IMG/VR virus record: IMGVR_UViG_3300020179_000034
Span: 1-59,966 of that record
Length of the DNA stretch: 59,966 nt
Strand: one strand, 5' to 3'
DNA from: a virus
The position numbers and the translations under genes are program-made. The notes under the pieces were generated by a model that was given only the letters and a program-made list of their open reading frames with translations, was not told the DNA's origin and ran no database searches. Positions 33,604-59,230 of this stretch are shown in pieces. Numbering within the stretch: the stretch's first letter is position 1; each line of letters opens with the position of its first letter.

Positions 33604-34866
33604 TTAGTTTTCAATAACAATCTTTCTACCAACAGGCGGCTCAAAGCCCCTGTTATGATTCGGCGGCAGCAGCCACAACACTGGGCAGTTCAACTCCCAA
33701 GTGATGTCATGCTCCACGTGGCCATCCGTGAACACAATCAGGAACTGTGGCTCGACGTTGTTCTTCGTGATGTAGTCACTGACGCACGACACCTTAGTAC
33801 CGCCGCCACCCAACGGCTTGAGCAACGTAGCGATGCCCTCGTAGTTACCTTCAAACACCTGCTCACCATGCACCATCGTGTCCCACCACAACACACGCAT
33901 ACGCTCTGGTCTGCATGTCTCACAGATGGACGCGATTTCGCCGCCGACCATGTTCAGCAGCGCGTCACCGATGCTGCCCGATGTATCGTTAGCGATAACA
34001 CCCTCGCAAATAGTCTCGGACTCCACGTGTGGCAGGAACAAATCATCAGCGAGACGGCGTCGGTTAAGTTTCGCCCAAGTCAACTCGTCCCGTCCTGCCA
34101 TCGCTGCGCTCACGAACTCACGCAGTTCCTCACGCCAGTCCACCTTGGGAGCAAGTATCTCCGTGATGGCACGGGGAGCCTTCACGCCAAACCGACCTGC
34201 GATAAGAGAGCCTTGACTGATAGCCTCGTCAATATCTTTCGATAACTGCTCAGCGGCTTCGCCGTCCATCGTCTCAGTCGATTCAGTGTCATGCTCGTCG
34301 AGCGGCTCCATGTCGCTGACACTGTCAGAGCCAGAAGTATTTTGGCCCATGCCGCCACTCTGACCTTGCTCGCCGGAAGGTTTCTGTTTCTCCTTCTCCA
34401 TGCGCTTGACCAAGTCATCCCACACTTGGCGCACCGACCACCCGTGATACTTGACATCGTAGAGCGCACCCGTTGGCAACTTCACCAAGTCGGGTGCCTT
34501 TTGACTGATCTCCATGATGATGGCGTTGATCACAAAATCCATCGCCACGTTGGCAAGTCGCGGATTCTGCTTGATCAAATCTTTGTGTCGTGGGATGTGC
34601 TTCAGCATCACATGCCCGTTCTCGTGCAGCACCAAGCCACCCAACTCAGCAAGGCTCAACTTTTCGATGAAGTTTTTCCCATATCGTTTGTTTAGACCAT
34701 CCGTACACGCTGTCGGAATCCCGACATCGACACTTGATTCACCCATCATGAGGATGCCCGAAAACAAGCAAGTCTCAGGGTGCTTCATTAGTCTGATATG
34801 CACCTTCTTCAACTTCATTGTTGCTTCGTGCGTACTTACGGGGATTGTTTCTGCTACTGCGTTCAT
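33604..34866 (-). CDS. VWA protein with HENGH metallopeptidase-like motif (DUF2201-like), 420 aa
   Basis: The start is ATG 34866 with GGAGG. Domains in order: a zincin-like helical domain with H81-E-N-G-H85 (LHENGHVMLKH) and a following D110/N114 helix; an acidic low-complexity linker (about 160-205); and a von Willebrand A-like domain from about 285 with a MIDAS DTSGS (294-298) and FTDGH near 376. This is the layout of DUF2201/VWA-like proteins, which in bacteria pair with MoxR AAA+ ATPases, as the upstream gene does here. Likely acts as the substrate-facing or chelatase-like partner. Whether the HExxH site cleaves protein is unknown. Confidence 0.9.
   Translation of the reverse strand: MNAVAETIPVSTHEATMKLKKVHIRLMKHPETCLFSGILMMGESSVDVGIPTACTDGLNKRYGKNFIEKLSLAELGGLVLHENGHVMLKHIPRHKDLIKQNPRLANVAMDFVINAIIMEISQKAPDLVKLPTGALYDVKYHGWSVRQVWDDLVKRMEKEKQKPSGEQGQSGGMGQNTSGSDSVSDMEPLDEHDTESTETMDGEAAEQLSKDIDEAISQGSLIAGRFGVKAPRAITEILAPKVDWREELREFVSAAMAGRDELTWAKLNRRRLADDLFLPHVESETICEGVIANDTSGSIGDALLNMVGGEIASICETCRPERMRVLWWDTMVHGEQVFEGNYEGIATLLKPLGGGGTKVSCVSDYITKNNVEPQFLIVFTDGHVEHDITWELNCPVLWLLPPNHNRGFEPPVGRKIVIEN
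34315..34329. promoter_or_regulatory. 15-bp palindrome copy inside VWA linker (14/15)
   Basis: GCTGACA-C-TGTCAGA. Unlike the others it is fully inside a gene, in codons for the Ser/Asp linker of the VWA protein, so it may be coincidental. Confidence 0.4.
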
Positions 34867-34892
34867 ACAGCCTCCATTGTCAATTGTTTACA

Positions 34893-35981
34893 TCAGGTCA
34901 GCAGTTGGTAATTACCATCCTGCAACCACTTGGAAATTTCAGCGTTCTTCGACGCGATAGGCGAGAGCCGACTGCTGCCCATCGCCATCGTGAAGAAGAC
35001 TGACTGCAACTCCTCAGACTTCGTCCGTCGCATAAACTTCATAAACTTGCTCAAGTCATCCTGCGTCTTGATAACGTCGATGGCATTGAACATCATCATG
35101 AACAGAGCCGCCTGTTTCTCTGGCACTCTGACACCGTCAGGGTCTTTGATAACATCCTCTGCCAACACCACCTCGTCCTTGAGGGACAACACTGCCGCCA
35201 ACTGTTTCGCACTCGGTACGCCAATCGAACCTGCAAGAGCCGCCATCGTCAGCGAATGACCTAACTTGTCACGGTTCACGATGTCGGGGTCACAGTTAGC
35301 GAGTGAGCGTGGGGAGCAGAATTGTTTTGTACGATGCACGGGAATGAACACATGCTCGTTGTCCTGTGGAGTAATTCCATCCAAGTAACTCGCCATGACT
35401 GACGGCGTCATCTTGACGAACGCTCTCAACTCCATAGACAACCCTGCGTTAGTCGCCCACACCAACCACTCGTCCACCGTAGGCTTACGAATGTTCAGCG
35501 TTGTAACGCGGTTCGATGCGTGCGCTAGCAGTGCGTTGCCAACACCATCTGTTGCAAGATTACCTGTCGCGAACACGATGGAATCTGGATGCAAGACATA
35601 GTCCATCCACACCTTGTCGAGCGTGAGCCGCGCACCCAACTTCTGCAACATCTTGTCACCCTTGTCGTACTCGTCGATCATGATCAACTTGGGTTTATTG
35701 GACTTCGGCTTGAGCAGTGACGATATGTATACTTCCAACTCGCCAGTGTCACGGTTCGGCGCACGTAGACCCAACTCACCATAGTCGATGCACGACCAGT
35801 CGAGATACACGGGGTCATACGCATCGCCCAATGCCTCGACCAACATTCGGTAAAGAGTTGATTTACCGATGCCAGGCTCCCCTTGAAAGTAATAAGTCTT
35901 GTTCTTGCCGTTCACCAACAGCAACTTGAACGCCTCGGGGATACTGATGGCGTTGTTAAAGTTAAGAGTTTCTCGTTTCAT
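34893..35981 (-). CDS. MoxR-type AAA+ ATPase, 362 aa
   Basis: Walker A GEPGIGKS (34-41), Walker B LIMIDE (99-104), sensor 1 FATGN (about 135) and an arginine region with NRVTTLNIRKPTVDEW fit the MoxR/CobS/NorQ class of AAA+ ATPases. These typically form rings that remodel a VWA-containing partner; the adjacent downstream gene encodes exactly such a partner. Relatives in cyanophages are often called CobS, but no cobalamin or porphyrin gene is present. The start is ATG 35981, 34 bases after the palindrome copy at 36015-36029, which also spans the previous stop codon. Confident as an ATPase, substrate unknown. Confidence 0.92.
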   Translation of the reverse strand: MKRETLNFNNAISIPEAFKLLLVNGKNKTYYFQGEPGIGKSTLYRMLVEALGDAYDPVYLDWSCIDYGELGLRAPNRDTGELEVYISSLLKPKSNKPKLIMIDEYDKGDKMLQKLGARLTLDKVWMDYVLHPDSIVFATGNLATDGVGNALLAHASNRVTTLNIRKPTVDEWLVWATNAGLSMELRAFVKMTPSVMASYLDGITPQDNEHVFIPVHRTKQFCSPRSLANCDPDIVNRDKLGHSLTMAALAGSIGVPSAKQLAAVLSLKDEVVLAEDVIKDPDGVRVPEKQAALFMMMFNAIDVIKTQDDLSKFMKFMRRTKSEELQSVFFTMAMGSSRLSPIASKNAEISKWLQDGNYQLLT

Positions 35982-38491: not shown

Positions 38492-38672
38492 GACCTCCTT
38501 TTGTCGTGATGAATCTGGCTACCGCTTGCTTCGCTCTACGCCGCTCGGTGTCACGCTTTAACTCCTCGCAGCACAGGCAAGACTTGCACCCGCAAATCTT
38601 GCCCACGGCTACGCGCTCCATACGCAACCATTCCTCGCGACTCCAGTTCAACTCTTCTAAAAGCGAATTCAT
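38487..38672 (-). CDS. Small cysteine-rich protein, 61 aa
   Basis: The start is ATG 38672, with GGGAGGG about eight bases upstream and overlapping the previous stop. A helical N-terminus (LLEELNWSREEWLRME) is followed by CGCKSCLCC, a tight four-cysteine cluster able to bind a metal, then a basic tail (KRDTERRRAKQAVARF). Likely a small zinc-binding, possibly nucleic-acid-binding, protein; no family known. Confidence 0.65.
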   Translation of the reverse strand: MNSLLEELNWSREEWLRMERVAVGKICGCKSCLCCEELKRDTERRRAKQAVARFITTKGGR

Positions 38673-38890
38673 CTGTAAAACCCTCCCTTGTTGTTGATGC
38701 CCTTCAGGTCTTCAGGGTTACTAGTCACGATGTAGTTTGATTTGTGCATCGGCACGATGGTGTGCCGCTTAGCCCTCGCCACGCGCTCCCCGCAGGGTAG
38801 GCAGGTAGTGAATCCCGCCATGCTACGGGCATACGGTACGCGCTTCGCCCAACACTTCGTGCATAACTTTTCCATACCATTCTGCGACAT
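38669..38890 (-). CDS. Small zinc-ribbon-like protein, 73 aa
   Basis: The start is ATG 38890. CTKCW at residues 10-14 and CLPCG at 30-34 form a C-x2-C...C-x2-C zinc-ribbon pattern, followed by a basic region (RVARAKRHTIVPMHKSN). It is the first clear gene downstream of the promoter at 39113-39141, with a leader of about 215 bases. Possibly a transcription or DNA-binding factor of the early region. Confidence 0.68.
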   Translation of the reverse strand: MSQNGMEKLCTKCWAKRVPYARSMAGFTTCLPCGERVARAKRHTIVPMHKSNYIVTSNPEDLKGINNKGGFYR

Positions 38891-38955
38891 GATTTACAGT
38901 ACTCCCGTTTTTCGAGTGGTAGTTACAGCGTGGGTGGCTTTTAACCTCGTTCTTA

Positions 38956-38982
38956 CACCCGCCCCCACGCGGACGGGTGATG
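38956..38982. other. GC-rich hairpin in the early leader
   Basis: Between the promoter at 39113-39141 and the gene at 38890 the leader contains CACCCG...CGGGTG arms (about 38956-38982) around a GC-rich loop. No T-run follows, so it may be a control element in the leader RNA. Confidence 0.5.
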
Positions 38983-39052
38983 CAGGACGTTCAACCTCAT
39001 GGGTGATTACGCGATACCCACAACGTCCAAGTTTCTCTCGCGTAATCTTGTT

Positions 39053-39067
39053 TCTGACAGTGTCAGA
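39053..39067. promoter_or_regulatory. 15-bp palindrome copy (perfect)
   Basis: TCTGACA-G-TGTCAGA, about 40 bases downstream of the predicted start of transcription of the 39113-39141 promoter. Confidence 0.8.
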
Positions 39068-39112
39068 GCCGCGAGTATTTATGACCTCGTTTGCTTCCTC
39101 GACTGTATAGAT

Positions 39113-39141
39113 ATTATAACAAAACTTGACTAATAAATCAA
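39113..39141 (-). promoter_or_regulatory. Strong early sigma-70 promoter
   Basis: On the minus strand TTGATT (39136-39141), a 17-base spacer and consensus TATAAT (39113-39118). It should drive the small-gene cluster from 38890 downward. Same -35 as the 37039 promoter. Confidence 0.85.
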
Positions 39142-39258
39142 GTCGATACAGCAACGGCGATAGGCTAATCAATGGTGATGCGTAACGTGAAAGGCGTGAA
39201 AGTGTTTTGTATATTCTGGTCTGGCTGGTCTTCAGTGTCAGCGTGGGATATGTGTTGC

Positions 39259-39273
39259 TCTGACAATGTCAGA
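39259..39273. promoter_or_regulatory. 15-bp palindrome copy (perfect)
   Basis: TCTGACA-A-TGTCAGA, directly before the first three TGTTCC hexamers in the control region. Confidence 0.85.
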
Positions 39274-39638
39274 TGTTCCGGTGTTCCAGCGTGTTCCAGA
39301 AAAAAAAGTTGCACTATTCTTCACGGGTGCTACGTTCCGTAGTGTAAGCGGATGAAGTAAGTTATTGATTTTTAAGAAAGAAGAAGAAGAAGAAGTTATA
39401 TTATGGAACAGAAAATAGTGTAAGTGTTCCATGTTCCATGAAATTGGGAATAGGGGCTACGGATTGCCGAAAAAATTTTATTTACGAACTTGCGCCGTGC
39501 CATGAACGGCGTCTAACTTTGTCCGCTTAGCCCCTCTCGGAAAACGTGGAACATTGGAACAAACCGTGTTTTTGTTTTATTTATCAAAGGCTTGCGTGTT
39601 CCAGAGGCTTGGAACACGTGCGGAACAGAATCGGAACA
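39274..39638. repeat. Cluster of 12 TGTTCC/GGAACA hexamers
   Basis: Copies (either strand) start at about 39274, 39282, 39292, 39405, 39425, 39432, 39548, 39556, 39597, 39611, 39622 and 39633. A random hexamer would be expected less than once in this length. Several are extended to GTGTTCCA. A protein-binding array is likely. Confidence 0.8.
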
Positions 39639-39707
39639 AAAAATGCTTGACCCGCGAAATCTTTTCTGGTAGCCTTGGATACCCAAGGCGGTCGATAAAG
39701 TTTTCGG

Positions 39708-39722
39708 TCTGACACTGTCAGA
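39708..39722. promoter_or_regulatory. 15-bp palindrome copy (perfect)
   Basis: TCTGACA-C-TGTCAGA, in the control region between the hexamer cluster and the 15-bp tandem repeats. Confidence 0.85.
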
Positions 39723-39805
39723 ACTTTGCGCTTTTCCATTTTCCTCGCGCAACGGCCTTCGCCATACGCTTTTGCCTTGTCCTTGGGCTTTACCCTTTTC
39801 CCTAG

Positions 39806-39865
39806 GAACTGGTATCTATAGAACTGGTATCTATAGAACTGGCTTCACAAGAACTGGCCTCACGG
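39806..39865. repeat. Four tandem 15-bp repeats
   Basis: Four head-to-tail units beginning GAACTGG: two identical (GAACTGGTATCTATA), then GAACTGGCTTCACAA and GAACTGGCCTCACGG. They have iteron-like spacing of 15 bp and sit directly beside the terminator. Confidence 0.88.
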
Positions 39866-39889
39866 CGTGAACCAAAGTCGTTCGGGCGT

Positions 39890-39922
39890 AAAAAAGCCCC
39901 GCCAAGCGTGAGCCTGACGGGG
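39890..39922 (-). terminator. Rho-independent terminator of the rightmost early operon
   Basis: On the minus strand an 11-bp stem (39912-39922 with 39897-39907, two G-T pairs) with a four-base loop, then C and TTTTTT. It ends transcription from the 41.1 to 39.9 kb genes and isolates the control region. Confidence 0.92.
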
Positions 39923-39929
39923 TTGTGGT

Positions 39930-40429: not shown

Positions 40430-41128
40430 TTAACCGAGAAGTGACTTGCGGAACGCTGCCAGAGCCTTCTTCGCGCCGTCGTTTGTGGCGACCTTGCGAC
40501 CGTCCGTTCGTGCCTTGCCCAACTTGGCAATCATCGGCTTCGCGAGACTATCGACCCACTCATCAACCGACTGAGTAGCACCGCGACCGCCAGATCGTTC
40601 GACGAACTCCGCTTCAAAGAACCGACCCCACGCCTTCGTCGCCGTGTTGGTTATGGTTTTGCGCGTAGACTCTACGAACCGACGCAGCCCCATCGGGTTA
40701 TCGGTCATGCTCGGCAACTTCGCGAGACTCGCCCGATCCATCGCAACCGCGTTACGACCCGTGAGCACGAAGTTCGCCGGACGCTCGTTTTTACCATTTG
40801 TAAACACGCTCGGTACGTGGAACTCATCGTCTCCCGACTTGTGCAGCGGACGGTCATACTCGGAACCCTCGGTCAGCGACATAATCGCCGCAGCCATGAA
40901 CAGGTTCCGCGCTTCCTCGCACGCTTCGGACTCGCGATCCAACGCACCCGACTCGGTGCGCGGGAAATCCGCAGTTAGCCTTGCGAACTCGCCCCGATAC
41001 TTTGACCACTTCGTGCGATCCGCACGAGTATGGCCGCCGACCTCGCGACCGAGTCCAGAAATCCCGTCAGCGATGGACGGGGCCAGTACGGATTTAACGG
41101 TATCCGCGACCGTGTTGGCTTGTGCCAT
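40430..41128 (-). CDS. Early unknown protein, 232 aa
   Basis: The first minus-strand gene after the divergent control region. Start ATG 41128. The protein is helical, basic overall (R/K-rich, pI likely above 9), with no hydrophobic segment: ADRTKWSKYRGEFARL, then a helical SEACEEARNLFMAAAIMSL, and a basic C-terminus (KARTDGRKVATNDGAKKALAAFRKSLLG). This suits a DNA- or RNA-binding early protein. No recognised family. Codon use looks more GC-rich than in neighbouring genes. Confidence 0.78.
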   Translation of the reverse strand: MAQANTVADTVKSVLAPSIADGISGLGREVGGHTRADRTKWSKYRGEFARLTADFPRTESGALDRESEACEEARNLFMAAAIMSLTEGSEYDRPLHKSGDDEFHVPSVFTNGKNERPANFVLTGRNAVAMDRASLAKLPSMTDNPMGLRRFVESTRKTITNTATKAWGRFFEAEFVERSGGRGATQSVDEWVDSLAKPMIAKLGKARTDGRKVATNDGAKKALAAFRKSLLG

Positions 41129-41463: not shown

Positions 41464-41487
41464 TCCGCACTACTTGGGTTGAGGCCC

Positions 41488-42081
41488 ATGCAAATACTTG
41501 TGCCGTACATCGAAGACAACATTCCGCTCCCCGCTAGCGCGGCTGAAGCGTTGCCGGAGTTAACTCCGGCTGAAGAACTAAGCATGCGGGTACGTACTAT
41601 AAAACTCGTATCTGATCTAACAGGCCAGCCCATCATCCCGACTAGCGAAGAGAAGGACGCTGCCGAGGAAATGGCTAGAAAAATGATGGAAGATCCTGAT
41701 GCACGGCCTGAATATGCCCTGCACTCGGACGAGTTCACTGCGTATTTATCGGGTCTGGTCTACCGTTCTAACGGTGCTATTGTCAAAGAATTAGCCGATC
41801 TTAAAAACTATGTCATAAATAAACTCGTATACGAGATTGAGCATACTAAAGATAATAAGTTAAAGATGCAGGCGGTAGCCAAACTGGGCGAGATTGACGG
41901 CGTGGACGCATTTAAGCGTCGAACTGAGACCACGCACGTTATTAAGCCCATCGAGGAAGTTGAAAAAGAACTTCTGCAGGTACTGGAAGGTATTGAGTAC
42001 AGCGTAGTTGGTGAAAGTAATAACAATATAAACCCCGAAGATTACTTACTGCCTGATGAAACTTCCCCAACTAACTCCTGA
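41488..42081 (+). CDS. Putative terminase small subunit, 197 aa
   Basis: The start is ATG 41488, with GAGG just upstream; an upstream TTG is less likely. The protein is acidic and helical (DNIPLPASAAEALPELTPAEELSMRVRTIKLVSDLTGQ), with a central coiled coil (IVKELADLKNYVINKLVYEIEHTKDNKLKMQAVAKLGEIDG). I see no clear HTH. The assignment rests on position (first late gene, overlapping the large terminase by 26 bases) and helical composition. If correct, it forms the ring that recognises phage DNA for packaging. Confidence 0.72.
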   Translation: MQILVPYIEDNIPLPASAAEALPELTPAEELSMRVRTIKLVSDLTGQPIIPTSEEKDAAEEMARKMMEDPDARPEYALHSDEFTAYLSGLVYRSNGAIVKELADLKNYVINKLVYEIEHTKDNKLKMQAVAKLGEIDGVDAFKRRTETTHVIKPIEEVEKELLQVLEGIEYSVVGESNNNINPEDYLLPDETSPTNS

Positions 42082-43579
42082 AAAACTCAAAGCGCTGCGT
42101 ATGGCGTTGCCAACGATGCCCGATGAGCAGAAACGGCGCACGTTGGAGTTGTTAAAGACGTATCAAACTGAGCGTACCCGTGCCGTTGGCAAGGATTTTT
42201 TCTTAGATTTTATCGCTCACGTGTATCCGGGCTACAAAGTAGGGCCGCACCATAGAAAATTAGCTGGAATTTTTGAAGATATTGCTGCAGGAGCGCGAAA
42301 AAGGGTCATCGTCAACATCGCGCCTCGTCATGGCAAGTCGGAAATGATCAGTTACCTCGCTCCGGCATGGTTTTTAGGCAAATTTCCGCATAAAAAGGTC
42401 ATTATGGCCTCACATACCGCCGATTTGGCGGTCAACTTTGGCAGAAGGGTGCGTAATCTTGTTGGCTCAGACCTTTATCATGACATTTTCCCGACTGTTG
42501 AGCTTCAAGCTGATAGTAAGAGTGCTTCTCGTTGGGGTACTAACTTTAATGGTGAGTATTTTGCTATTGGTGTTGGCGGTGCTTTGGCCGGTCGCGGCGC
42601 TGATCTTTTCATTATTGACGACCCTCATTCTGAGCAGGAAGCGAAGCAAGGCAGAGCCGACGTATTTGAGCCAGCATGGGAGTGGTTCCAGTCAGGCCCA
42701 GTCCAAAGATTGATGCCGGGTGGTGCCATTATCGTCGTAATGACTCGATGGTCAAAGATGGATTTGACCGGCAAGATCGTAGACCACATGACTAAGAACG
42801 AGGACGCGGATCAATGGGAATTGGTCGAGTTTCCCGCTGTTCTCAACGACAAACCGCTTTGGCCTGACTTCTGGACACTGGAAGAACTGCTTGCCAAAAA
42901 GGCGAGTATGGATGTGCGCTATTGGCAGGCACAGTACATGCAGCAGCCGACCTCAGAAGAAGGTGCCTTGCTCAAACGAGAATGGTGGCAGGTGTGGGAG
43001 AAGGAGGATCCGCCCCCTTGCGAACACATTATTATGAGCCTCGACGCCGCTCAAGAAAAGACTAACCGCTCTGACTTTAACGCCCTGACTACATGGGGGG
43101 TCTTCTTTAACGAGGAGACTAAGAACTATAACCTAATCTTGCTGAACGCCATCAAAGAGCGGCTTGAGTTCCCTGAACTGAAGGCGATGGTGCTGGAGGA
43201 GTACAAAGACTGGAATCCTGATTCATTTATTGTGGAAAAGAAGTCCAACGGTGCGGCGCTTTATCAGGAGATGCGCCGCATGGGTGTGCCGCTTAGCGAG
43301 TTTACCCCGTCCAAGGGGCAGGACAAGATCAGTAGAGTAAATGCTGTGTCAGACTTGTTTGCTGCGGGTATAGTCTGGGTACCCGATAGGCGCTGGGCGC
43401 GAGAGGTCGTCGAGGAGTGTAACGACTTCCCATCCGGCGCGAACGATGACTTAGTGGACTCAACCACGCTGGCGCTTTTGCGGTTCCGTCAAGGCGGGTT
43501 TATCCGTCTTCCGACTGACGAGCCGGAGCCGAAGAAGTGGTTTAAGAGTCGTAAGTCACTAGCAGCCGGATATTACTAG
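42056..43579 (+). CDS. terL: Terminase large subunit, 507 aa
   Basis: The DNA packaging motor. The ATPase domain has the Walker A variant APRHGKS (89-95) and Walker B LFIIDD (184-189); a GAxxV-type MTRWS follows. The C-terminal nuclease domain has a catalytic Asp in SLDAAQ (about 328-333), EKKSNG and DDLVDST. These are the terminase_6-type motifs. Length is normal. It overlaps the preceding gene in frame +1 by 26 bases and the portal follows after ten bases. A very secure call. Confidence 0.95.
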   Translation: MKLPQLTPEKLKALRMALPTMPDEQKRRTLELLKTYQTERTRAVGKDFFLDFIAHVYPGYKVGPHHRKLAGIFEDIAAGARKRVIVNIAPRHGKSEMISYLAPAWFLGKFPHKKVIMASHTADLAVNFGRRVRNLVGSDLYHDIFPTVELQADSKSASRWGTNFNGEYFAIGVGGALAGRGADLFIIDDPHSEQEAKQGRADVFEPAWEWFQSGPVQRLMPGGAIIVVMTRWSKMDLTGKIVDHMTKNEDADQWELVEFPAVLNDKPLWPDFWTLEELLAKKASMDVRYWQAQYMQQPTSEEGALLKREWWQVWEKEDPPPCEHIIMSLDAAQEKTNRSDFNALTTWGVFFNEETKNYNLILLNAIKERLEFPELKAMVLEEYKDWNPDSFIVEKKSNGAALYQEMRRMGVPLSEFTPSKGQDKISRVNAVSDLFAAGIVWVPDRRWAREVVEECNDFPSGANDDLVDSTTLALLRFRQGGFIRLPTDEPEPKKWFKSRKSLAAGYY

Positions 43580-43589
43580 GAGAATCTAA

Positions 43590-46145
43590 ATGGCCGTTGA
43601 TAAAAGTTTAATGCAGGCTCCGCAGGGTCTTGAAGCACTTGCTCCCCCCGAGCCGATTGAGATTCAGATTGAAGACCCTGAAAGCGTATCTATTGGTATC
43701 GACGGGGTTGTGATTAACCTTGTGAAGTCTGAGCCACGTGCCGAAGACTTTGACGCCAACCTTGCTGATTTCATGGGTGAGAACGAGTTGCAGAGCCTAG
43801 CCTCTGAACTTTTGGGGCAGTACGAACAAGACCTTTCAAGTCGCAAGGACTGGCTAGATACCTACGTCAAAGGTTTGAAAATTTTGGGTATTCGATACGA
43901 AGAACGTACTGAGCCGTGGCCCGGTGCGTGTGGTGTGTTTCACCCACTTCTGATGGAGTCGGCGGTCAAGTTTCAGTCCGAGACCATTATGGAGACCTTT
44001 CCTGCCATGGGGCCGGTCAAAACCAAGATCATCGGCAAGGAGACTAACGAGAAGAAAGATTCCGCTGTTCGTGTCGCGGATGACATGAACTATCAGTTGA
44101 CCGAGGTAATGAAAGAGTACCGCCCAGAGCATGAGCGGATGTTGCTCAGCATGGCTTTGGCGGGTAATGCGTTTAAGAAAATTTACTTTGATCCTTCGCT
44201 TGATCGGCAGACTGCTATCTATATCTCGGCTGAAGACATTATCGTGCCGTACGGCGCAGCCAATTTGGAAGGTGCCGAGCGTGTTACGCACCGGATGCGT
44301 AAGACGAAAAATGAGTTAATTAAACTACAACACGCGGGGTTTTATCGTGATGTAGACTTGGGTGATCCGGTTCGCACGATGGATGAGGTGGAGAAGCAAA
44401 AGGCTGAAGATCAAGGTTTCTCGGCGTCCATGGATGACAGGTTCCAGTTGCTTGAGATGCATGTGAACATCGACTTGCCGGGTTACCCTGATGTCGATAA
44501 AAACAACGACGAAACAGGAATTGCTCTACCGTATGTAGTGACCCTTGAAAAAGGAACCAGCACCGTTTTGGCGATTAGGAGAAATTATCGTGAAGACGAT
44601 AAACTCAAACAGAAACGACAACATTTCGTTCATTATGGATATATACCCGGATTTGGATTTTACTACTTCGGACTTATACACCTTATCGGCGGTCACTCTA
44701 AAGCGGCAACTTCCCTCCTTCGTCAACTTATCGACGCAGGAACTCTTAGCAATCTTCCGGGTGGTCTCAAATCACGCGGTCTGCGTATCAAGGGAGACGA
44801 TACACCCATCGCTCCCGGTGAGTGGCGAGACGTAGACGTACCCTCTGGCGCGGTTCGGGACAACATCCTGCCGCTGCCGTACAAAGAGCCAAGCCAAACC
44901 CTTGCTCTACTTATGGACAAGGTGATCGAGGAGGGCCGCAGATTCGCTGCGGTGTCTGATCTCAAGATTAGTGACATGTCATCACAGGCTCCAGTAGGCA
45001 CTACGCTTGCTGTGCTTGAGCGCGTTCTCAAAGTAATGACGGCGATTCAGGCTCGCATTTACTACACGATGAAGCAGGAGTTTAAACTTCTAGCTGCAAT
45101 TATTCGTGATAACACACCAGATGAGTATTCGTACGAGCCGGAAGTAGGCAATCGCAAGGCCAAGAAAGCTGACTACGATGACGTTGATGTCATCCCAGTC
45201 AGTGATCCAAACGCGGCTACGATGTCGCAAAAGATCGTGCAATACCAAGCCGTGCTGCAGTTGTCTCAGTCTTCACCCGGCATCTACGATATGCCGTACT
45301 TGCACCGGCAGATGATTGAGACTCTTGGCGTTAAGAACGCTGAGAAAATTATTCCTGACCCAGACAAGATGAAGCCGCGTGACCCGATCACCGAAAACAT
45401 GGATATCCTAAACGGCAAACCCGTCAAGGCGTTTATGTATCAAGATCACGAGGCTCACTTGCAAGTGCATAACGCTGCTTTGCAAGACCCGAAGATGCGC
45501 CAGATTATCGGGCAAAACCCGAAGGCGCAAGAGATCATGGGCGCTGCGATGGCTCACATCATGGAACATGTAGCGTTTCAGTACCGCAAAGAAATTGAAA
45601 AGCAACTTGGAGTCGCCCTCCCGCCGATGCCGGAGGAGGACAAGGACGAAACGTATCTGCCGCAAGAAGCTGAGATTCAAGTCTCGCGTCTTTCTGCTAT
45701 CGCAGCCGCCAAACTTTTGCAGAAAGATCAAGCTGAAGCACAAATGCAGCAAGCTCAACAACAGGCTCAAGACCCTGTACTGCAGATGCAGCAGCAAGAA
45801 CTGCAACTCCGTCAGCAGGAACTGCAACTCAAGGCGCAGCAGATTCAGATGGAAGCGCAAAATAGACAAACAGAATTGCAGCTTGAGGCACAACTCAAGC
45901 AAGCAGAACTGCAACGCAAACAGCAAGAGATGCAGATCATGGCAGCTACCAAGGCCGATGAACTCGACCTACGGAAGCAAGAAATAGCTAATAGAACGCA
46001 ACTTGATGCTGCACGACTCGGTGTGGATGTTCAGAAGCACAAGACCAATTTGTCTGCCAAGCAGCAAACTGAAGGTATGCGTATGGGTATCGATATCGCA
46101 AAACAAACAATGTTACGGTCAAAAAATCCAAGAAGGGAGGAGTAA
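43590..46145 (+). CDS. Portal protein, 851 aa
   Basis: A large portal of P22/podovirus type. The N-terminal 70 residues are acidic, followed by a portal core (SRKDWLDTYVKGLKILGIRYEE, then TEPWPGACGVFHPLLMESAVKFQSE). A long Gln-rich coiled coil (about 700-830) of QQQELQLRQQ type repeats forms the barrel-like crown. The position between terminase and scaffold confirms it. The C-terminal Gln-rich helix is unusually long, typical of barrel portals that reach into the head. Confidence 0.93.
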   Translation: MAVDKSLMQAPQGLEALAPPEPIEIQIEDPESVSIGIDGVVINLVKSEPRAEDFDANLADFMGENELQSLASELLGQYEQDLSSRKDWLDTYVKGLKILGIRYEERTEPWPGACGVFHPLLMESAVKFQSETIMETFPAMGPVKTKIIGKETNEKKDSAVRVADDMNYQLTEVMKEYRPEHERMLLSMALAGNAFKKIYFDPSLDRQTAIYISAEDIIVPYGAANLEGAERVTHRMRKTKNELIKLQHAGFYRDVDLGDPVRTMDEVEKQKAEDQGFSASMDDRFQLLEMHVNIDLPGYPDVDKNNDETGIALPYVVTLEKGTSTVLAIRRNYREDDKLKQKRQHFVHYGYIPGFGFYYFGLIHLIGGHSKAATSLLRQLIDAGTLSNLPGGLKSRGLRIKGDDTPIAPGEWRDVDVPSGAVRDNILPLPYKEPSQTLALLMDKVIEEGRRFAAVSDLKISDMSSQAPVGTTLAVLERVLKVMTAIQARIYYTMKQEFKLLAAIIRDNTPDEYSYEPEVGNRKAKKADYDDVDVIPVSDPNAATMSQKIVQYQAVLQLSQSSPGIYDMPYLHRQMIETLGVKNAEKIIPDPDKMKPRDPITENMDILNGKPVKAFMYQDHEAHLQVHNAALQDPKMRQIIGQNPKAQEIMGAAMAHIMEHVAFQYRKEIEKQLGVALPPMPEEDKDETYLPQEAEIQVSRLSAIAAAKLLQKDQAEAQMQQAQQQAQDPVLQMQQQELQLRQQELQLKAQQIQMEAQNRQTELQLEAQLKQAELQRKQQEMQIMAATKADELDLRKQEIANRTQLDAARLGVDVQKHKTNLSAKQQTEGMRMGIDIAKQTMLRSKNPRREE

Positions 46146-46334
46146 ATGGGTTATTCCAACGCTCTAGAATACTTGGATACAAAACTTCAAGAAGAGCGCA
46201 CATTAATTGTTGAAACCTTAATCCAAGGTAAGTTGGACGAAGGCGAATACAAACGTCTTTGCGGGGCGCTACAGGGTCTCGATCTCGCCAAGAACCATAT
46301 CAAAGACCTTGCAAAACGGCTGGAGGAAGAGTGA
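46146..46334 (+). CDS. Small helical protein, 62 aa
   Basis: The gene begins at ATG 46146 with GGGAGGAG. A continuous charged helix (LEYLDTKLQEERTLIVETLIQGKLDEGEYKRLCGALQGLDLAKNHIKDLAKRL split by one short turn). It could be a small assembly factor or portal accessory. It overlaps the GroES-like gene by GTGA. Confidence 0.82.
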   Translation: MGYSNALEYLDTKLQEERTLIVETLIQGKLDEGEYKRLCGALQGLDLAKNHIKDLAKRLEEE

Positions 46335-46708
46335 GTAGCATAGACGTAGCAAAAACACAGGAAGAGGCTAACAAGGCCAAACTCCTACCGGAGCCAAAAG
46401 GCTATCGAATTTTGTGTGCAGTTCCGCATGTAGAGGAGGAGTTTGAGGGGGGGATCGTTAAAGCCGAGGACACCAGAAAAGTCGAGGAGCAGACCACGGT
46501 GGTTCTGTTTGTCGTCAAAATGGGTGACCTTTGTTACGCAGACAAGGAACGTTTTCCCACTGGCCCTTGGTGCAAGGAAGGCGACTTTGTGCTGACCCGC
46601 CCCTATTCAGGCACCCGCGTGGTCATCCACGGTCGGGAGTTCCGCATTATCAACGACGATACGGTGGAAGCGGTGGTCGAAGACCCCCGTGGAATCCGTC
46701 GCGCATAG
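46331..46708 (+). CDS. GroES-like co-chaperonin, 125 aa
   Basis: The start is GTG 46331, overlapping the previous stop; an upstream in-frame start is possible but overlaps more. Residues about 20-115 follow a Cpn10-type beta-barrel order: PEPKGYRILCAVP, then EGGIVKAEDTRKVEEQTTVVLFVVKMGDLCYAD, FPTGPWCKEGDFVLTRPYSGTRVVIHGREFRIINDDTVEAVV. This is the signature of phage GroES-like proteins, which replace host GroES to fold capsid. The mobile-loop region at about 32-45 (EEEFEGGIVKAED) carries the GGI hydrophobic part needed to bind GroEL. Its place in the head operon suits this role. Confidence 0.85.
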   Translation: MSSIDVAKTQEEANKAKLLPEPKGYRILCAVPHVEEEFEGGIVKAEDTRKVEEQTTVVLFVVKMGDLCYADKERFPTGPWCKEGDFVLTRPYSGTRVVIHGREFRIINDDTVEAVVEDPRGIRRA

Positions 46709-46717
46709 GAGTAAATC

Positions 46718-47707
46718 ATGGCTGTTGAACAAACTGAATTTAAGTTTCCTGATGAGATCGAGGCTGAAAAAGTCGAAGCAAAACAAGAAGTTAGCGACAA
46801 TATTGAAGTTAAAGTAGAGGATGATACCCCGCCAGAAGACCGGGGCCGTAAACCTCTGCCCAAAGACATTGTGGATGAACTGGAAAAGGATGATCTTGAG
46901 GAGTATTCCGAAAAGGTAAAGAAACGCCTCTCCCAGATGAAAAAGGTCTGGCACGACGAGCGTCGTGAGAAGGAACGTGCCGCCCGTGAAAAAGATGAGG
47001 CTGTCCGGTTTGCCCAACAGCAATACGAGGAGAACAAGCGGCTGAAGCAGCGACTTGGTGTGGGCGAACGCGCCTTTATCCAAGAAGTTACCAAGGCTGC
47101 TAACAATGAACTTAATGTAGCCAAAGACAGGCTAAAACAGGCTTATGAGGCTGGTGATGCCGAGAAGATTGCGGAGGCTCAGGAGTCCCTGACCGATGCC
47201 AAACTTCGGCTGCAGCAATACTCCAGATTTCAGCCTACTTTACAACCCCAAGAATCGGGTGTACAACAAACACAACAAGTCCAAACGCCACAGGCTTCTG
47301 CTCCAGTAATCGACCCGAAAGCTGAATTATGGAGACAGAAAAACCCTTGGTTCGGCGTAGACGAGGAGATGACCGCCCTCGCACTTGGACTGCACGCTAA
47401 ATTAGAAAGGTCTGGAGTAGATTTGCGTAGCGATGATTACTATCGCCAGATCGACTCGACGATGAAGAAGCGATTCGCTGACTATTTCGATGAGGAAGTA
47501 GAACAGGAAGAAAAGCCGATTCAAACGAGAGAGGTTGAAAAACCTACTCGCACAAAACCAGCCAATGTAGTGGCTCCGGTCACGCGGGGAACCGCGCCTC
47601 GTCAGGTACGCCTGACACCGACTCAAGTTGCTATCGCTAAGAAATTAGGTTTGAGCAACGAGCAGTACGCACGAGAACTTATGAAACTGGAGAACGACAA
47701 TGGTTAA
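46718..47707 (+). CDS. Scaffolding protein, 329 aa
   Basis: Acidic N-terminus (residues 1-60), a long charged coiled coil at about 70-170 (EYSEKVKKRLSQMKKVWHDERREKERAAREKDEAV), a Gln/Pro linker (180-215) and a basic helical C-terminus (QVRLTPTQVAIAKKLGLSNEQYARELMKL). This is the classic scaffold composition and its place between portal and capsid genes supports it. It overlaps the next gene by eight bases. Confidence 0.85.
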   Translation: MAVEQTEFKFPDEIEAEKVEAKQEVSDNIEVKVEDDTPPEDRGRKPLPKDIVDELEKDDLEEYSEKVKKRLSQMKKVWHDERREKERAAREKDEAVRFAQQQYEENKRLKQRLGVGERAFIQEVTKAANNELNVAKDRLKQAYEAGDAEKIAEAQESLTDAKLRLQQYSRFQPTLQPQESGVQQTQQVQTPQASAPVIDPKAELWRQKNPWFGVDEEMTALALGLHAKLERSGVDLRSDDYYRQIDSTMKKRFADYFDEEVEQEEKPIQTREVEKPTRTKPANVVAPVTRGTAPRQVRLTPTQVAIAKKLGLSNEQYARELMKLENDNG

Positions 47708-48149
47708 CAATCGTCTTGATCGTGAAGTTGAAAATAGAGAATCGACGCAGCGCACAAAAAATTGGACTCCTCCCCAGACGCTTCCGGCACCTACGCCGCA
47801 GCCGGGTTGGGTGTTCCGCTACATCCGGACAAGTATTATGGGAACTGCTGACCCATCGAATACCTCCGCAAAATTTCGTGAAGGTTGGGAGCCTGTGAAG
47901 GCTGAAGACCATCCGGAGTTGATGCATATGACCGATCCTAATTCCAAATTTAAAGGGAACGTTGAGATCGGTGGTTTGTTGTTGTGTAAAGCTCCAGAAG
48001 AGTTGATGAATCAGCGCGATAACTATTACGCGCAGCAAGCAAAGGCTCAACTGCAGTCTGTAGACAACAACTTTATGAAGCTAAACGATGAACGTATGCC
48101 GCTCTTTAATGAAAAGAGAACGACGATCTCGTTTGGTAAAGGTAAATAA
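47700..48149 (+). CDS. Head-associated protein, 149 aa
   Basis: The start is ATG 47700, overlapping the scaffold stop. The N-terminus is basic/proline-rich (TPPQTLPAPTPQPGWVFRYIR), the middle has GTADPSNTSAKFREGWEPVKAEDHPELM, and the C-terminus is helical (EELMNQRDNYYAQQAKAQLQSVDNNFM). It is a conserved companion of podovirus capsid genes by memory, of unknown function; a decoration or maturation role is possible. Confidence 0.78.
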   Translation: MVNNRLDREVENRESTQRTKNWTPPQTLPAPTPQPGWVFRYIRTSIMGTADPSNTSAKFREGWEPVKAEDHPELMHMTDPNSKFKGNVEIGGLLLCKAPEELMNQRDNYYAQQAKAQLQSVDNNFMKLNDERMPLFNEKRTTISFGKGK

Positions 48150-48167
48150 TTTATTTTGGAGTAACTA

Positions 48168-48830
48168 ATGGCATATCCTACTATCGACAAGCCTTATGGC
48201 TTGAAGCCGATTAATATAATCGGCGGGCAGGTGTTTGCCGGTTCGACTCGCCAACGTCGTATTGATTCTGGTGCTTCCAGTATTGGATACGGCGACCCGG
48301 TGAAATTCGCATCGGACGGCACTGTTGTTGTGTGTACGGAAACGACGGCTCCCCCGGACGCTGGCTTTGCCGGTGTATTCTTGGGTTGCACGTTCGTATC
48401 CTCTGTAACTGGTCAGCCGACTTTTTCGCAGCAGTGGACTTCGGGTACTTCGGTCAAGGCTGGTACGTTTGTTTACGCATACGTAGCGGATGACCCGGAC
48501 ACCCTGTTCAAGGCTGTCGGCGTGTCGGCTTCGCTTGTGGTTTCGACCTCGGGCGGCTTCGTGTATGGCGACATTAATTCCAACGTTGCGTTGGTGGCTA
48601 ATACGCTAAATACGACTACGGGCGATTCGCAGCAAGGGCTTTTGACTAGCTCTGTTGCAACCACTCGTTCGCTGCCTATTCGCATTGTCGATGTGGTTGA
48701 AGACACTTCCTTTGTGTCAAGCGGCACTACCTACTACCCAGAAGTTATCGTGAAGTTTAATGCTTCATACATTACGAGTAACTCTCTGATTGTGGGTGGT
48801 CACGCTTATAACAACCCACTCGGCATTTAA
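48168..48830 (+). CDS. Head decoration-like protein, 220 aa
   Basis: A Gly/Ser/Thr/Val-rich, beta-rich protein starting MAYPTIDKPYGLKPIN with an IGGQVFAG loop, then repeated beta strands (TFVYAYVADDPDTLFKAV, VVSTSGGFVYGDIN). No helices or membrane segments. The location just before the capsid gene and the composition suggest a decoration protein that stabilises the shell. The family is common in marine podoviruses, from memory. Confidence 0.8.
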   Translation: MAYPTIDKPYGLKPINIIGGQVFAGSTRQRRIDSGASSIGYGDPVKFASDGTVVVCTETTAPPDAGFAGVFLGCTFVSSVTGQPTFSQQWTSGTSVKAGTFVYAYVADDPDTLFKAVGVSASLVVSTSGGFVYGDINSNVALVANTLNTTTGDSQQGLLTSSVATTRSLPIRIVDVVEDTSFVSSGTTYYPEVIVKFNASYITSNSLIVGGHAYNNPLGI

Positions 48831-48847
48831 TAGGGGAGTTCTAAGAA

Positions 48848-49756
48848 ATGGCTATTTCACGCGCACAGTTACTTAAGGAACTCCTTCCGGGTTTGAATGC
48901 CCTGTTTGGCCTTGAGTACAAGACCTATGGTGAGGAGCATAAGGAGATCTATGAAACTGAGACCTCCGAACGTTCCTTTGAAGAGGAGACCAAACTTTCT
49001 GGATTTAGTGCAGCCCCGGTAAAAGCCGAAGGCTCTGCTATTGCGTATGACAACGCACAGGAAGCGTGGACTGCTCGTTACAGTCACGAGACAATTGCTC
49101 TCGGCTTCTCCATCACGGAAGAGGCGGTTGAAGACAACCTGTACGATTCGCTGTCTAAGCGATATACCAAGGCGCTCGCCCGAGCGATGGCGTACACGAA
49201 GCAAGTTAAGGCGGCTGCAGTTCTGAACAACGGCTTTTCAGCGTCCTACCCCGGTGGTGACGGTGTGGCCCTGTTCTCGACTTCACACCCGCTTGTTTCA
49301 GGTGGTACCAACAGCAACCGTTTGACGGCTTCTGACCTCAACGAAACTTCGCTTGAGGCGGCGGTCATTCAGATTGCTGGTTGGGTTGATGAACGTGGAC
49401 TCTTGATCGCGGCGAAGCCCGGTAAGCTCATCGTGCCTCCAGCACTGATGTTCACTGCCAAGCGTCTCCTCGATACGGAGCTTCGCGTGGCAACTGCGGA
49501 CAACGACATCAACGCGCTGAAGGCGATGGGGTCGATTCCGGGTGGTTACACTGTTAACCACTACCTGACGGATACGAATGCGTGGTTCCTAACCACCGAC
49601 GTTCCGAACGGTATGAAGTACTTCGTTCGTACCCCGCTGCAAAACAGCATGGACGGCGATTTCGACACCGGTAACGTCCGTTACAAAGCCCGTGAACGCT
49701 ATAGCTTCGGCTTTAGTGATCCGCTGGGTATGTTTGGTTCGCCGGGTTCGTCTTGA
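48848..49756 (+). CDS. Major capsid protein, 302 aa
   Basis: An HK97-fold-type major capsid protein: N-terminal helices (SRAQLLKELLPGLNALFGLEYKTYGEEHKEIYE), a spine segment (QVKAAAVLNNGFSASYPGGDGVALFSTSHPLVSGG), the P-domain-like PGKLIVPPALMFTAKRLLDTELRV, and a C-terminal strand (FVRTPLQNSMDGDFDTGNVRYKARERYSFGF). By position and pattern it resembles Mu gpT-like / podovirus capsid proteins. A strong terminator follows directly, which would make this the last gene of a highly expressed segment. Confidence 0.93.
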   Translation: MAISRAQLLKELLPGLNALFGLEYKTYGEEHKEIYETETSERSFEEETKLSGFSAAPVKAEGSAIAYDNAQEAWTARYSHETIALGFSITEEAVEDNLYDSLSKRYTKALARAMAYTKQVKAAAVLNNGFSASYPGGDGVALFSTSHPLVSGGTNSNRLTASDLNETSLEAAVIQIAGWVDERGLLIAAKPGKLIVPPALMFTAKRLLDTELRVATADNDINALKAMGSIPGGYTVNHYLTDTNAWFLTTDVPNGMKYFVRTPLQNSMDGDFDTGNVRYKARERYSFGFSDPLGMFGSPGSS

Positions 49757-49763
49757 TGAGTGT

Positions 49764-49800
49764 GGGAGGGGGGTGAAAGCCCCCTTCCCTTTTTTGTTTT
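49764..49800 (+). terminator. Strong terminator after the capsid gene
   Basis: GGGAGGGGGG / GCCCCCTTCCC stem with a short GAAA-containing loop, followed by TTTTTTGTTTT. Likely stops most head-operon transcription. Confidence 0.93.
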
Positions 49801-49836
49801 GTAAGCGTATACGTTGAATTTACCGGGGTAATTTAA

Positions 49837-49890
49837 GTCCATCAGACAGACCCGGCTGACGACATGCAGACTGATGGACGACTCGCATGT
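49837..49890 (+). ncRNA. Structured leader, possible pseudoknot
   Basis: Between the terminator and the next gene, GTCCATCAG (49837-49845) pairs perfectly with CTGATGGAC (49871-49879). Inside that loop ACATGC (49862-49867) can pair with GCATGT (49885-49890) just downstream, making an H-type pseudoknot immediately before the GAGG ribosome site. The sequence GGTAATTTAA occurs twice, before the structure (49827-49836) and at the real ribosome site (49893-49902). This could regulate translation of the next gene or stabilise the RNA end. Pairing is by eye only. Confidence 0.6.
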
Positions 49891-49903
49891 GAGGTAATTT
49901 AAA

Positions 49904-50095
49904 ATGGCTCAGACTACATTCAGTGGCCCGGTTAATCTGGGTGTTTTCACGGTTGCTACGGCCCCTACGAGTAACGTCTCTACAGGCTCCGTTGCTTATT
50001 TCTCAAATGGCGCTGCAGGTAACCCGGTTCTTGCGTTTTACAACGGCACCAACTGGTTGCGTGTGGACACTTTGGCTGCTATTTCTGCTAGCTAA
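49904..50095 (+). CDS. Small virion-type protein, 63 aa
   Basis: The start is ATG 49904, shortly after GAGG. A short Gly/Ser/Thr/Ala-rich beta protein (FSGPVNLGVFTVATAPTSN, VLAFYNGTNWLRVDTL). The FYNGTNWLRVDT end resembles small modules found in phage tail fibres and head fibres. Its position just downstream of the capsid terminator and the structured leader suggests controlled high expression. Role unknown. Confidence 0.78.
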   Translation: MAQTTFSGPVNLGVFTVATAPTSNVSTGSVAYFSNGAAGNPVLAFYNGTNWLRVDTLAAISAS

Positions 50096-50123
50096 TACCC
50101 CCTAACCCTAGGAGGGTATGACA

Positions 50124-50423
50124 ATGCAAACAGATGTCTTAGCCAGTAAAGTCGCTACGACTGCTGGCGATCTATTGGATCAAAATAGCCTTGTAATTGG
50201 GCGTTCTCGCGTAAAAGCGATTTACATTGTTCCTGATACCGGTGCGGGTACAGTGACGTTTCGTGACGGCGGGGCTAATGGCCCAGTCAAGATCGTATTA
50301 AACACCAAGGCAAGTTCAACTTCTGCGGACTACACCCTGATGCCGGGTGAAGGATTGCTCTTCCAAACGAGCATTTACATCGTCCCGTCAGCCGTTATCT
50401 CCACGCTGGTGATTTATGGCTAA
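50124..50423 (+). CDS. Small beta-rich virion protein, 99 aa
   Basis: I prefer ATG 50124 because AGGAGG lies eight bases upstream; ATG 50118 is only two bases from it. The protein begins MQTDVLAS and has a regular strand pattern (RVKAIYIVPDTGAGTVTFRDGG, VKIVLNTKAS, GLLFQTSIYIVPSAVISTLVIY). Likely a structural (decoration or fibre) protein. Overlaps the next gene by eight bases. Confidence 0.8.
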   Translation: MQTDVLASKVATTAGDLLDQNSLVIGRSRVKAIYIVPDTGAGTVTFRDGGANGPVKIVLNTKASSTSADYTLMPGEGLLFQTSIYIVPSAVISTLVIYG

Positions 50424-50670
50424 AACTCCTGCGTGGCAACGCAAGGAAGGTAAGAATCCTGCTGGCGGCTTGAATGCCAAAGGCAGGGCTTCCTACAACC
50501 GTGCTAATCCCGGTAAGCCGGGTCTCAAGCGTCCTCAACCCGAGGGCGGTGCGCGTAAGAAATCATTCTGTGCCCGTATGTCGGGCATGAAAAAGAAACT
50601 GACGAGTGCCAAGACTGCTAACGATCCGAACAGTCGGATCAATAAATCACTTCGCGCATGGAATTGCTAA
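50416..50670 (+). CDS. Small basic protein, DUF6321-like, 84 aa
   Basis: A Lys/Arg/Gly-rich protein with AWQRKEGKNPAGGLNAKGRASYNRANPGKPGLK, then KKSFCARMSGMKKKLTSAKTANDPNSRINKSL, ending RAWNC. The pattern belongs to a family shared by tailed phages and large eukaryotic viruses (DUF6321-like from memory). Two cysteines flank the C-terminal half. It may bind DNA or be a packaged basic protein. No known function. Confidence 0.85.
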   Translation: MAKTPAWQRKEGKNPAGGLNAKGRASYNRANPGKPGLKRPQPEGGARKKSFCARMSGMKKKLTSAKTANDPNSRINKSLRAWNC

Positions 50671-50672
50671 AA

Positions 50673-50861
50673 ATGAAAGACGAAAATGTTGAAACCCTAA
50701 AAAACGTGGGTGACGCGCTATCTGTCTTTACGGTAATAGGAACTCTAATCGAAATGCTTCCGTCTGTTGCGGCAATATTTACTATTTTGTGGACGGGTAT
50801 CCGTATTTACGAAACTAAAACCGTACAAGGTTGGATTAAGAAGTGGAAAAACCGTGCCTAG
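50673..50861 (+). CDS. Small membrane protein, 62 aa
   Basis: Placed at ATG 50673 (an ATG 15 bases earlier lies inside the previous gene). One or two hydrophobic stretches (ALSVFTVIGTLIEMLPSVAAIFTILWTGIRIY) followed by a basic end (WIKKWKNRA). Possible holin-like or virion membrane protein; no family recognised. Overlaps the next GTG start by eight bases. Confidence 0.68.
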   Translation: MKDENVETLKNVGDALSVFTVIGTLIEMLPSVAAIFTILWTGIRIYETKTVQGWIKKWKNRA

Positions 50862-51003
50862 TAAATCTGCTAAACAACATCGTCTAATGGCTGCGGTCGC
50901 TAATAACAAAGCGTTCGCTAAAAAAGTTGATATTCCACAATCCGTGGGGCGGGAGTACGTTAAAGCCGATAAAGGCCGCAAATTTAGGAGTAAATCGAAA
51001 TGA
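50854..51003 (+). CDS. Small basic protein, 49 aa
   Basis: The start is GTG 50854, inside the end of the membrane protein gene. PSKSAKQHRLMAAVANNKAF is followed by AKKVDIPQSVGREYVKADKGRKF, a very basic pattern common in small proteins of phages. Probably nucleic-acid-binding or packaged with DNA. It overlaps the next gene by ATGA. Confidence 0.78.
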   Translation: MPSKSAKQHRLMAAVANNKAFAKKVDIPQSVGREYVKADKGRKFRSKSK

Positions 51004-51272
51004 GAATGAAGCCTAAAATGATGAAAATGATCAAGAAAATGAATATGGGCGGTATGCCTTATTCTGATGGTGGCATGACCAAAAAAATGAATATGGGTGG
51101 TATGGCCTATTCTAATGGTGGCATGACCAAAAAAATGAATATGGGTGGCATGTCTTATTCAAAAGGTGGCATGACCAAAAAAATGAACGGTAAACCTCAG
51201 TCTGGTAGTGGAGCATCTAAACGCGCTGATGGCATTGCCAGCAAGGGTAAAACCAAAGGACGTTTTGTATGA
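51000..51272 (+). CDS. Gly/Met-repeat protein, 90 aa
   Basis: Starts at ATG 51000. Three consecutive imperfect copies of a 17-residue unit (KKMNMGGM.YS.GGMT) precede a basic end (SGSGASKRADGIASKGKTKGRFV). The DNA repeats are nearly identical, so the gene can vary by copy number. The SKRADGIA..GKT(K/R)GR C-terminus is shared with the next gene. Function unknown; the repeated GGM and Lys residues suggest a flexible, structural or nucleic-acid-binding protein. Confidence 0.82.
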   Translation: MRMKPKMMKMIKKMNMGGMPYSDGGMTKKMNMGGMAYSNGGMTKKMNMGGMSYSKGGMTKKMNGKPQSGSGASKRADGIASKGKTKGRFV

Positions 51273-52060
51273 AACGAAAAATGCGTAAGTTTAGACTCGG
51301 TGGCGGCATTGATGGCGGCTACGAAGAAAATCCACCGGGAATGACTAGCTACAGTGACGGCAAGGGACGCGTGCCTATGTCTAATCGCAGAAATAGCGAT
51401 GAAGATAAGCCTATGACTTTTAAACAGGCTTTTGCAGAAGCACGTGCTAAAAAACAGGATACTTTTACTTTTAAGAATCCTAAGACGGGGAAAATGGAGC
51501 GTTTTCATACCCGTACTAAAGAAGAGGAAAGTAAACCTAATAATGTTAGTAATAATAAACTTAAAGAAGTTACAGAAACCAAGACTTCCGAAATTAAAAC
51601 GCCTGTTAGTAGAAGCGTAGCCCCGAAAAGAAAATTGCCTGAAAATTATAGTCCAAGAGTAGGTTCAGGGCGATATAACGATCCTACAACTACATACGGG
51701 GAACGTTTATTATCACCGCTTAAAAAACTTACTGACATTTTTGGTCTTCGTGAGGAAGAGAGTGTCATGCGGAACATGGGCGTAAATAGAGAAGAAGCCC
51801 GTAGACGCCTCGATGCTAAAGAAAAGGCAGAAGAGGGTATGCGCCGTGGCGGTAAGATTAAAAAAATGGCTTCGGGCGGTAGTTTTCCTGACCTAACTGG
51901 CGATGGCAAAGTAACTCGCGCTGATGTTCTTAAAGGCCGTGGCGTATTCAATCAAGGTGGTCGCGTAAAGAGATATGCCAGTGGCGGTTCTGTTTCGTCT
52001 GCTTCTAAACGTGCTGATGGTATCGCTCAGCGCGGTAAAACTAGAGGAAGACTTATATGA
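51269..52060 (+). CDS. Basic protein with EF-hand/dockerin-like loop, 263 aa
   Basis: Overlaps the previous stop (ATGA). A Gly-rich start (KFRLGGGIDGGYEENPPG), a flexible charged middle, a helix (EEARRRLDAKEKAEEGMRRGG), then FPDLTGDGKVTRADVLKGRGVF (about 208-229), whose D-x-T-G-D-G-x-V-x-x-x-D fits a calcium-binding dockerin or EF-hand-like loop. The end repeats the SKRADGIA..GKTRGR tag of the previous gene. AT-rich codon use in the middle third. Likely virion-associated; role unknown. Confidence 0.78.
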   Translation: MKRKMRKFRLGGGIDGGYEENPPGMTSYSDGKGRVPMSNRRNSDEDKPMTFKQAFAEARAKKQDTFTFKNPKTGKMERFHTRTKEEESKPNNVSNNKLKEVTETKTSEIKTPVSRSVAPKRKLPENYSPRVGSGRYNDPTTTYGERLLSPLKKLTDIFGLREEESVMRNMGVNREEARRRLDAKEKAEEGMRRGGKIKKMASGGSFPDLTGDGKVTRADVLKGRGVFNQGGRVKRYASGGSVSSASKRADGIAQRGKTRGRLI

Positions 52061-53697: not shown

Positions 53698-53706
53698 GAG
53701 ATTGAG

Positions 53707-54951: not shown

Positions 54952-54953
54952 AA

Positions 54954-55409: not shown

Positions 55410-55427
55410 TTTAGTTAGGCAAGGGCC

Positions 55428-56330: not shown

Positions 56331-56341
56331 GGTAATGACAC

Positions 56342-59218: not shown

Positions 59219-59230
59219 TTAGGAGCAACC

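Follow-up and report, generated by a model that had tools for sequence, protein, structure and literature searches.

The segment at positions 39274-39638 of the window (here the whole stretch of DNA analysed, a 59,966-base record of a lake phage) is probably a replication-origin iteron array, in which short repeats would be read by the C-terminal domain of the phage's own primase-helicase, with the DNA bent by IHF and melting between the repeat sets A and B. This reading draws on (i) the array itself, (ii) a layout that is kept among relatives with changing repeat words, (iii) IHF-like sites and an AT-rich tract, and (iv) the homology of the primase-helicase to SaPI and SCCmec helicases.

The leftward early genes of the window (41128 to 16971) encode a family-A DNA polymerase, an SNF2-type helicase, an exonuclease and the DUF927 primase-helicase, and the rightward late genes (41479 to 59218 and 833 to 16796) the terminase, the portal and structural proteins. 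The terminase is ~50% identical to those of the marine phages 023Pt_psg01 and HTVC027P and the lake phage DSL-LC04. The early operon also holds a gene pair (33604-35981) for an AAA ATPase and a VWA/metallopeptidase-like (DUF2201) protein, which is absent in some relatives (e.g., G059, G003). The ends of the record (1-815 and 59152-59966) have an 815-bp stretch in common at ~95% identity, which is not a plain circular overlap since the two copies differ by 44 mismatches. Coding tandem repeats were noted at 6346-6936 (18-, 24-, 66- and 117-bp units) within a 961-aa ORF (4660-7545), and at 51027-51187 (48-bp unit, MTKKMNMGGMxYSxGG) in a small ORF (51000-51272). A CTGATA cluster at 6329-6788 equalled the score of the array when one scan was run with relaxed settings, and was rejected as a coding tandem repeat.

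As stated in the preliminary description, exactly 12 copies of TGTTCC/GGAACA were counted at 39274-39638; six lie on each strand. Its estimate of less than one copy by chance agrees with the 0.17 copies expected in 365 bp from the local composition (Poisson P for at least 12, ~1e-18). The excess is local, since the whole 60-kb window has 39 copies compared to 31.8 expected. The surrounding noncoding gap (38891-39929, 1,039 bp) is bounded by convincing genes and holds none. From left to right the copies form set A (39274-39297, forward; at 39274, 39282 and 39292), a lone reverse copy (39405-39410) left of set B (39425-39437; two forward copies, period 7 bp), set C (39548-39561; two reverse copies, period 8 bp), the single forward copy E (39597-39602), and set D (39611-39638; three reverse copies, period 11 bp). 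The dyad at 39596-39617 and the AT-rich GAA tract pointed out earlier are both real. In eight related genomes the two-orientation word-cluster score matched a single place per genome, namely the array, and none of the other 76 segments.

The AT-rich tract (39351-39430), which is flanked by sets A and B with sets C, E and D beyond, is the 80-bp stretch of lowest stability in the gap, ranks 18 of 11,978 windows genome-wide, and is the candidate melting region. Two matches to the IHF consensus, WATCAANNNNTTR, were identified by consensus and alignment: AATCAATAACTTA on the - strand (39358-39370), which equals WATCAANNNNTTR, and TATCAAAGGCTTG on the + strand (39582-39594). Such sites were present in 24 of 30 arrays, with at least two in 14 of them, where 0.03 are expected per array, and they stand at fixed places in the array, the property by which an IHF-assisted origin was to be recognised. 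A GC-skew analysis, which had been suggested as a check for an origin, placed the cumulative minimum ~2.2 kb or less from the array in 8/8 genomes; this is consistent with an origin but is confounded by gene orientation, which switches there too.

For the analysis of conservation, relatives were collected using the terminase and one early protein, and the DNA upstream of the terminase gene was then searched. The array lies 2.4 kb upstream of this gene in the window and ~1.2-4.3 kb upstream in the relatives, which have in common a layout of three forward copies, two forward copies (7-8 bp period), ~115 bp (range ~102-134 bp) of intervening DNA, two reverse copies (8 bp), one forward copy, and three reverse copies, accompanied by IHF-consensus sites and an AT-rich tract. 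The arrangement of sets B and C occurred in 0/200 control segments. Using a general two-orientation cluster score, a cluster was detected in 33 of 43 distinct terminase-upstream regions; two of the ten negative regions (L029, L034) were invalid due to contig-end artefacts, and four (L191, L181, L125, L131) had mixed or weaker words by eye. The hexamer cluster is a single module within a larger, origin-like region that is conserved. A nucleotide search of the region against annotated phages gave no match, Rfam and tRNA scans returned nothing, and the genome-contig scan yielded mostly metagenome-assembled contigs and no host.

What related phages keep is the spacing and orientation of the repeats, and the word itself differs by lineage. 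With spacing and orientation kept, the outcome that the preliminary description had named as refuting its idea, hexamers not conserved in sequence or spacing among related phages, did not occur. TGTTCC is the word of most lineages; others have TGTACG (G004, G018, G041, G042), TGTGTC (G059, G062, G074, and the loci L033 and L124), TGTGCC (G003), mixed TGTKCC words (G008, G009), TGTGCA (G045), TGTGCG (G075), TGTTCA (G082) or, in the distant Pseudomonas phage Rollin, TTGCATA. Words inside one array mostly agree, so the repeats change together. To judge from dozens of relatives, the layout stays while the word changes from lineage to lineage.

The earlier proposal of an initiator-binding array is partly supported: it fits the kept layout, the IHF-like sites and the AT-rich tract well, but does not hold with regard to the two 15-bp palindromes that it had noted beside the array. 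These are present, yet the 15-mer TCTGACAnTGTCAGA has five copies across the window, of which the array gap holds three (39053, 39259, 39708), and since most array-keeping relatives do not have it, it is an element separate from the array. The palindrome CTGACAnTGTCAG (13-bp core) was found at eight places (32126, 34316, 36015, 38181, 39053, 39259, 39708, 41219), five of which are perfect TCTGACAnTGTCAGA, with several copies directly upstream of leftward genes; it also occurs in close relatives and L050 and is missing in most relatives with the array. These copies look like the operator set of a phage regulator. A putative rightward promoter (TTGACC-N17-TAGCCT, 39647-39689, + strand) lies over the palindrome GCCTTGGATACCCAAGGC and is alike in several relatives. 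Right of the array there is a 15-bp tandem repeat, GAACTGGTATCTATA, in about four copies (39806-39863), and similar repeats, AACTGGYNTCG, also follow the array in L174, L070, L180, L033, L181 and L191.

A protein that reads the array was expected to occur in every phage that has the array and to vary between phages with different words. The gene adjoining the array (40430-41128) has no homolog in most array-bearing relatives, and the Zn-ribbon gene (38669-38890) and the genes at 36025, 34893 and 33604 are missing from some array-bearing genomes; these were rejected as binders. A 103-aa HTH protein (19867-20178, - strand), encoded directly upstream of the primase-helicase, offers an alternative in which the array would still be the origin but this protein would be the specific binder, handing the DNA to the primase-helicase in the manner of lambda O. 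We consider this unlikely: although the gene is found in all checkable related genomes and the AF2 model of the protein (pLDDT 83.5) has an HTH at residues 36-54, the recognition helix SRISVYNW is common to phages with TGTGTC (G059, G062), TGTTCC (G061) and mixed TGTKCC (G009) words, 0 of 77 variable columns separate the word classes, and Foldseek matches to HipB/XRE folds were not significant. As a word-matched binder it fitted at first, and the fit was broken by more genomes. The neighbouring genes thus fail in presence and the 103-aa HTH protein in word difference, which leaves the phage's own DUF927 primase-helicase as the best candidate reader.

This candidate initiator (942 aa, 16971-19799, - strand) combines AEP-like N-terminal primase motifs with a DUF927 helicase domain at residues 447-654 (95.2 bits; Pfam cut-off 22.6). 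The profile of its alignment matched SaPI 8tch ('Pathogenicity island protein', E 2.9e-17) and SCCmec Cch 5dgk ('Active helicase', E 7.4e-16), the latter match reaching the C-terminal domain, and these matches place it among the Rep-type initiator helicases related to SaPI Rep. The preliminary description had recognised no conventional initiator gene, which overlooks that the primase-helicase itself is related to known initiators; its mention of the primase-helicase as a possible reader is strengthened by the same homology, with binding to the repeats still a prediction. The C-terminal domain (~residues 830-925, 17025-17312, - strand; with Lys898 at codon 17106-17108) is HTH_56-like. Five of 18 C-terminal domains matched the Pfam model HTH_56 ('Cch helix turn helix domain') with a best value of 4.6e-5, the best match (23.8 bits) lying under the Pfam cut-off of 26.2. 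The single-sequence structure model of the primase-helicase had a pLDDT of 37, so the term 'winged helix' rests on sequence. The N-terminal primase was assigned because of motifs found by reading (FIDLD, SGGGVHAYW and DAARILRCP, with no profile behind the AEP membership) and because of the domain order in PMC5862659.

Across 2,087 variable columns of nine shared early proteins, residue 898 of the primase-helicase, within 'AKKMRL', was the sole fixed difference between TGTG phages and TGTT/TGTA phages, being Arg with TGTG words (G003, G045, G059, G062) and Lys with TGTT/TGTA words. G074 and G075, which were added later, fit this rule. The column was found by search, and the TGTG words in the comparison arose independently about three times. 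When the word labels were reassigned with relatedness matched, 14 of 304 reassignments likewise gave at least one perfect column (p ~0.05 over all proteins). A distant clade (G082-G086) breaks the rule by having Arg with TGTT words, the residues around 898 gave no clean code, and a two-residue wing code ('KK', 'EK', 'RR', 'DR') weakened as genomes were added. Within the main clade residue 898 appears to track the word, if modestly.

The best named-phage match of the primase-helicase was from Pseudomonas phage Rollin (27% identity, 95% covered), in which the polymerase, SNF2 helicase, exonuclease, VRR nuclease and two early proteins without an assigned function likewise have homologs; terminase and portal homologs of the window were not detected in Rollin. 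Its strongest repeat cluster (eight TTGCATA words at 261-673; score 10 vs. a shuffle maximum of 6) has an IHF-consensus site at 324 and lies in the gap that separates leftward from rightward genes. Since in Rollin an array accompanies the replication genes although terminase and portal homology is undetectable, the array is associated with replication and not with packaging. The marine phage 023Pt_psg01 has the terminase and portal in common with the window, and no primase-helicase homolog was detected in it. Its noncoding gap with seven TGTGCC words (L099 10608-10817; MW574966.1 13576-13785) is without the IHF-flanked layout, and its own annotated primase (514 aa) has a possible winged-helix-like segment at its end. 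Arrays of this kind may therefore also occur outside the DUF927 phages. In Rhizobium phage RHph_TM27A, which has a 24% homolog of the primase-helicase, no cluster beyond chance was found.

It is very unlikely that the array is instead a control region, at which a phage regulator on the repeats would switch transcription of the leftward early and the rightward late genes and no initiation would take place. Its position close to where early and late genes diverge, beside the promoter-like sequence and the 15-bp palindromes, would suit such a role, but in Rollin an array is found together with the replication genes while homology of terminase and portal is not detectable, an AT-rich tract with paired iteron sets on its sides and IHF-like sites is the anatomy of an origin, and the sole column that tracks the word sits in the primase-helicase. 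That the small terminase or a centromere-binding protein binds the array as a packaging (pac) or partition site is hardly probable at all despite the proximity of the terminase gene (2.4 kb), given that Rollin has an array and replication genes without detectable terminase/portal homology, that 023Pt_psg01 shares the terminase and portal without the IHF-flanked layout, so that in these two phages the array does not follow the packaging genes rather than the replication genes, and that several array-bearing relatives have no copy of the 232-aa, Zn-ribbon and AAA/VWA genes near the array.

For the preferred reading, an iteron origin read by the primase-helicase, we infer origin activity, binding by the primase-helicase and by IHF, the place of melting, loading, and the order of events as follows. 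Several primase-helicase molecules would bind the TGTTCC repeats via their C-terminal winged-helix-like domains, IHF or a similar bending protein would introduce a bend at each of the two WATCAANNNNTTR sites, melting would occur in the AT-rich tract that separates set A from set B, the MCM-like DUF927 ring would load and unwind, and the fused primase would supply primers to the family-A polymerase of the phage. As the word of the array must match its reader, the two would differ jointly from one lineage to the next under an unchanged layout. More broadly, and tentatively, a large freshwater phage family might use PICI-like iteron origins in which the initiator C-terminal domain and the word have switched together repeatedly, possibly against satellite parasitism or co-infection incompatibility. 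If true, this repeated switching would provide a series, made by nature, from which a code of origin recognition could be read. A similar plan is now seen in a widespread phage family and a named Pseudomonas phage, Rollin, and the many natural words with candidate cognate proteins make origin recognition by an initiator helicase, and the evolution of its specificity, directly testable.

A literature search, which covered few subscription journals, found no description of such an origin. The alpha protein of phage P4 is a primase-helicase that binds short repeats (type I iterons) at its own origin, as is proposed for the candidate in the window; alpha differs in being of another helicase family and from a satellite phage. 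SCCmec Cch (DUF927, 5dgk) is alike in the profile homology that extends through the helicase into the C-terminal domain and in the sub-threshold HTH_56 match, but is a helicase without a fused primase in a staphylococcal cassette. The PrimQH-type AEP primases have the identical domain order, a DUF927 helicase with a C-terminal WH fusion, the WH being suggested for origin recognition (PMC5862659), whereas for the window phage a cognate array is proposed and membership in the AEP group was assigned by motifs.

Closest in plan are the SaPI/PICI origins (e.g., SaPIbov1). The C-terminal domain of SaPI Rep binds short ori iterons, the DUF927 protein Cch is related to SaPIbov1 Rep (PMC7581432), and the PICI ori consists of an AT-rich region with one set of iterons on either side (PMC6092414). 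The window array is alike in its short iteron sets flanking an AT-rich tract, in element-specific words, and in a DUF927-related helicase with a candidate C-terminal reader (PMC6092414, PMC7581432). It is unlike them in its fused AEP-like primase, its IHF-like sites, its ~12 words in five blocks, and in being carried by a ~60-kb phage with its own terminase, portal and structural/capsid genes. Two defining features of SaPI/PICI origins were not found: their origin is located immediately 3' of the initiator gene, whereas the window array (39.3-39.6 kb) lies ~19 kb from that gene (17.0-19.8 kb), and SaPI/PICI are integrating phage-inducible satellites, which the window phage is not, so the array was not filed as a SaPI/PICI origin. 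By analogy, the window array would work like a SaPI/PICI origin, but it is not one.
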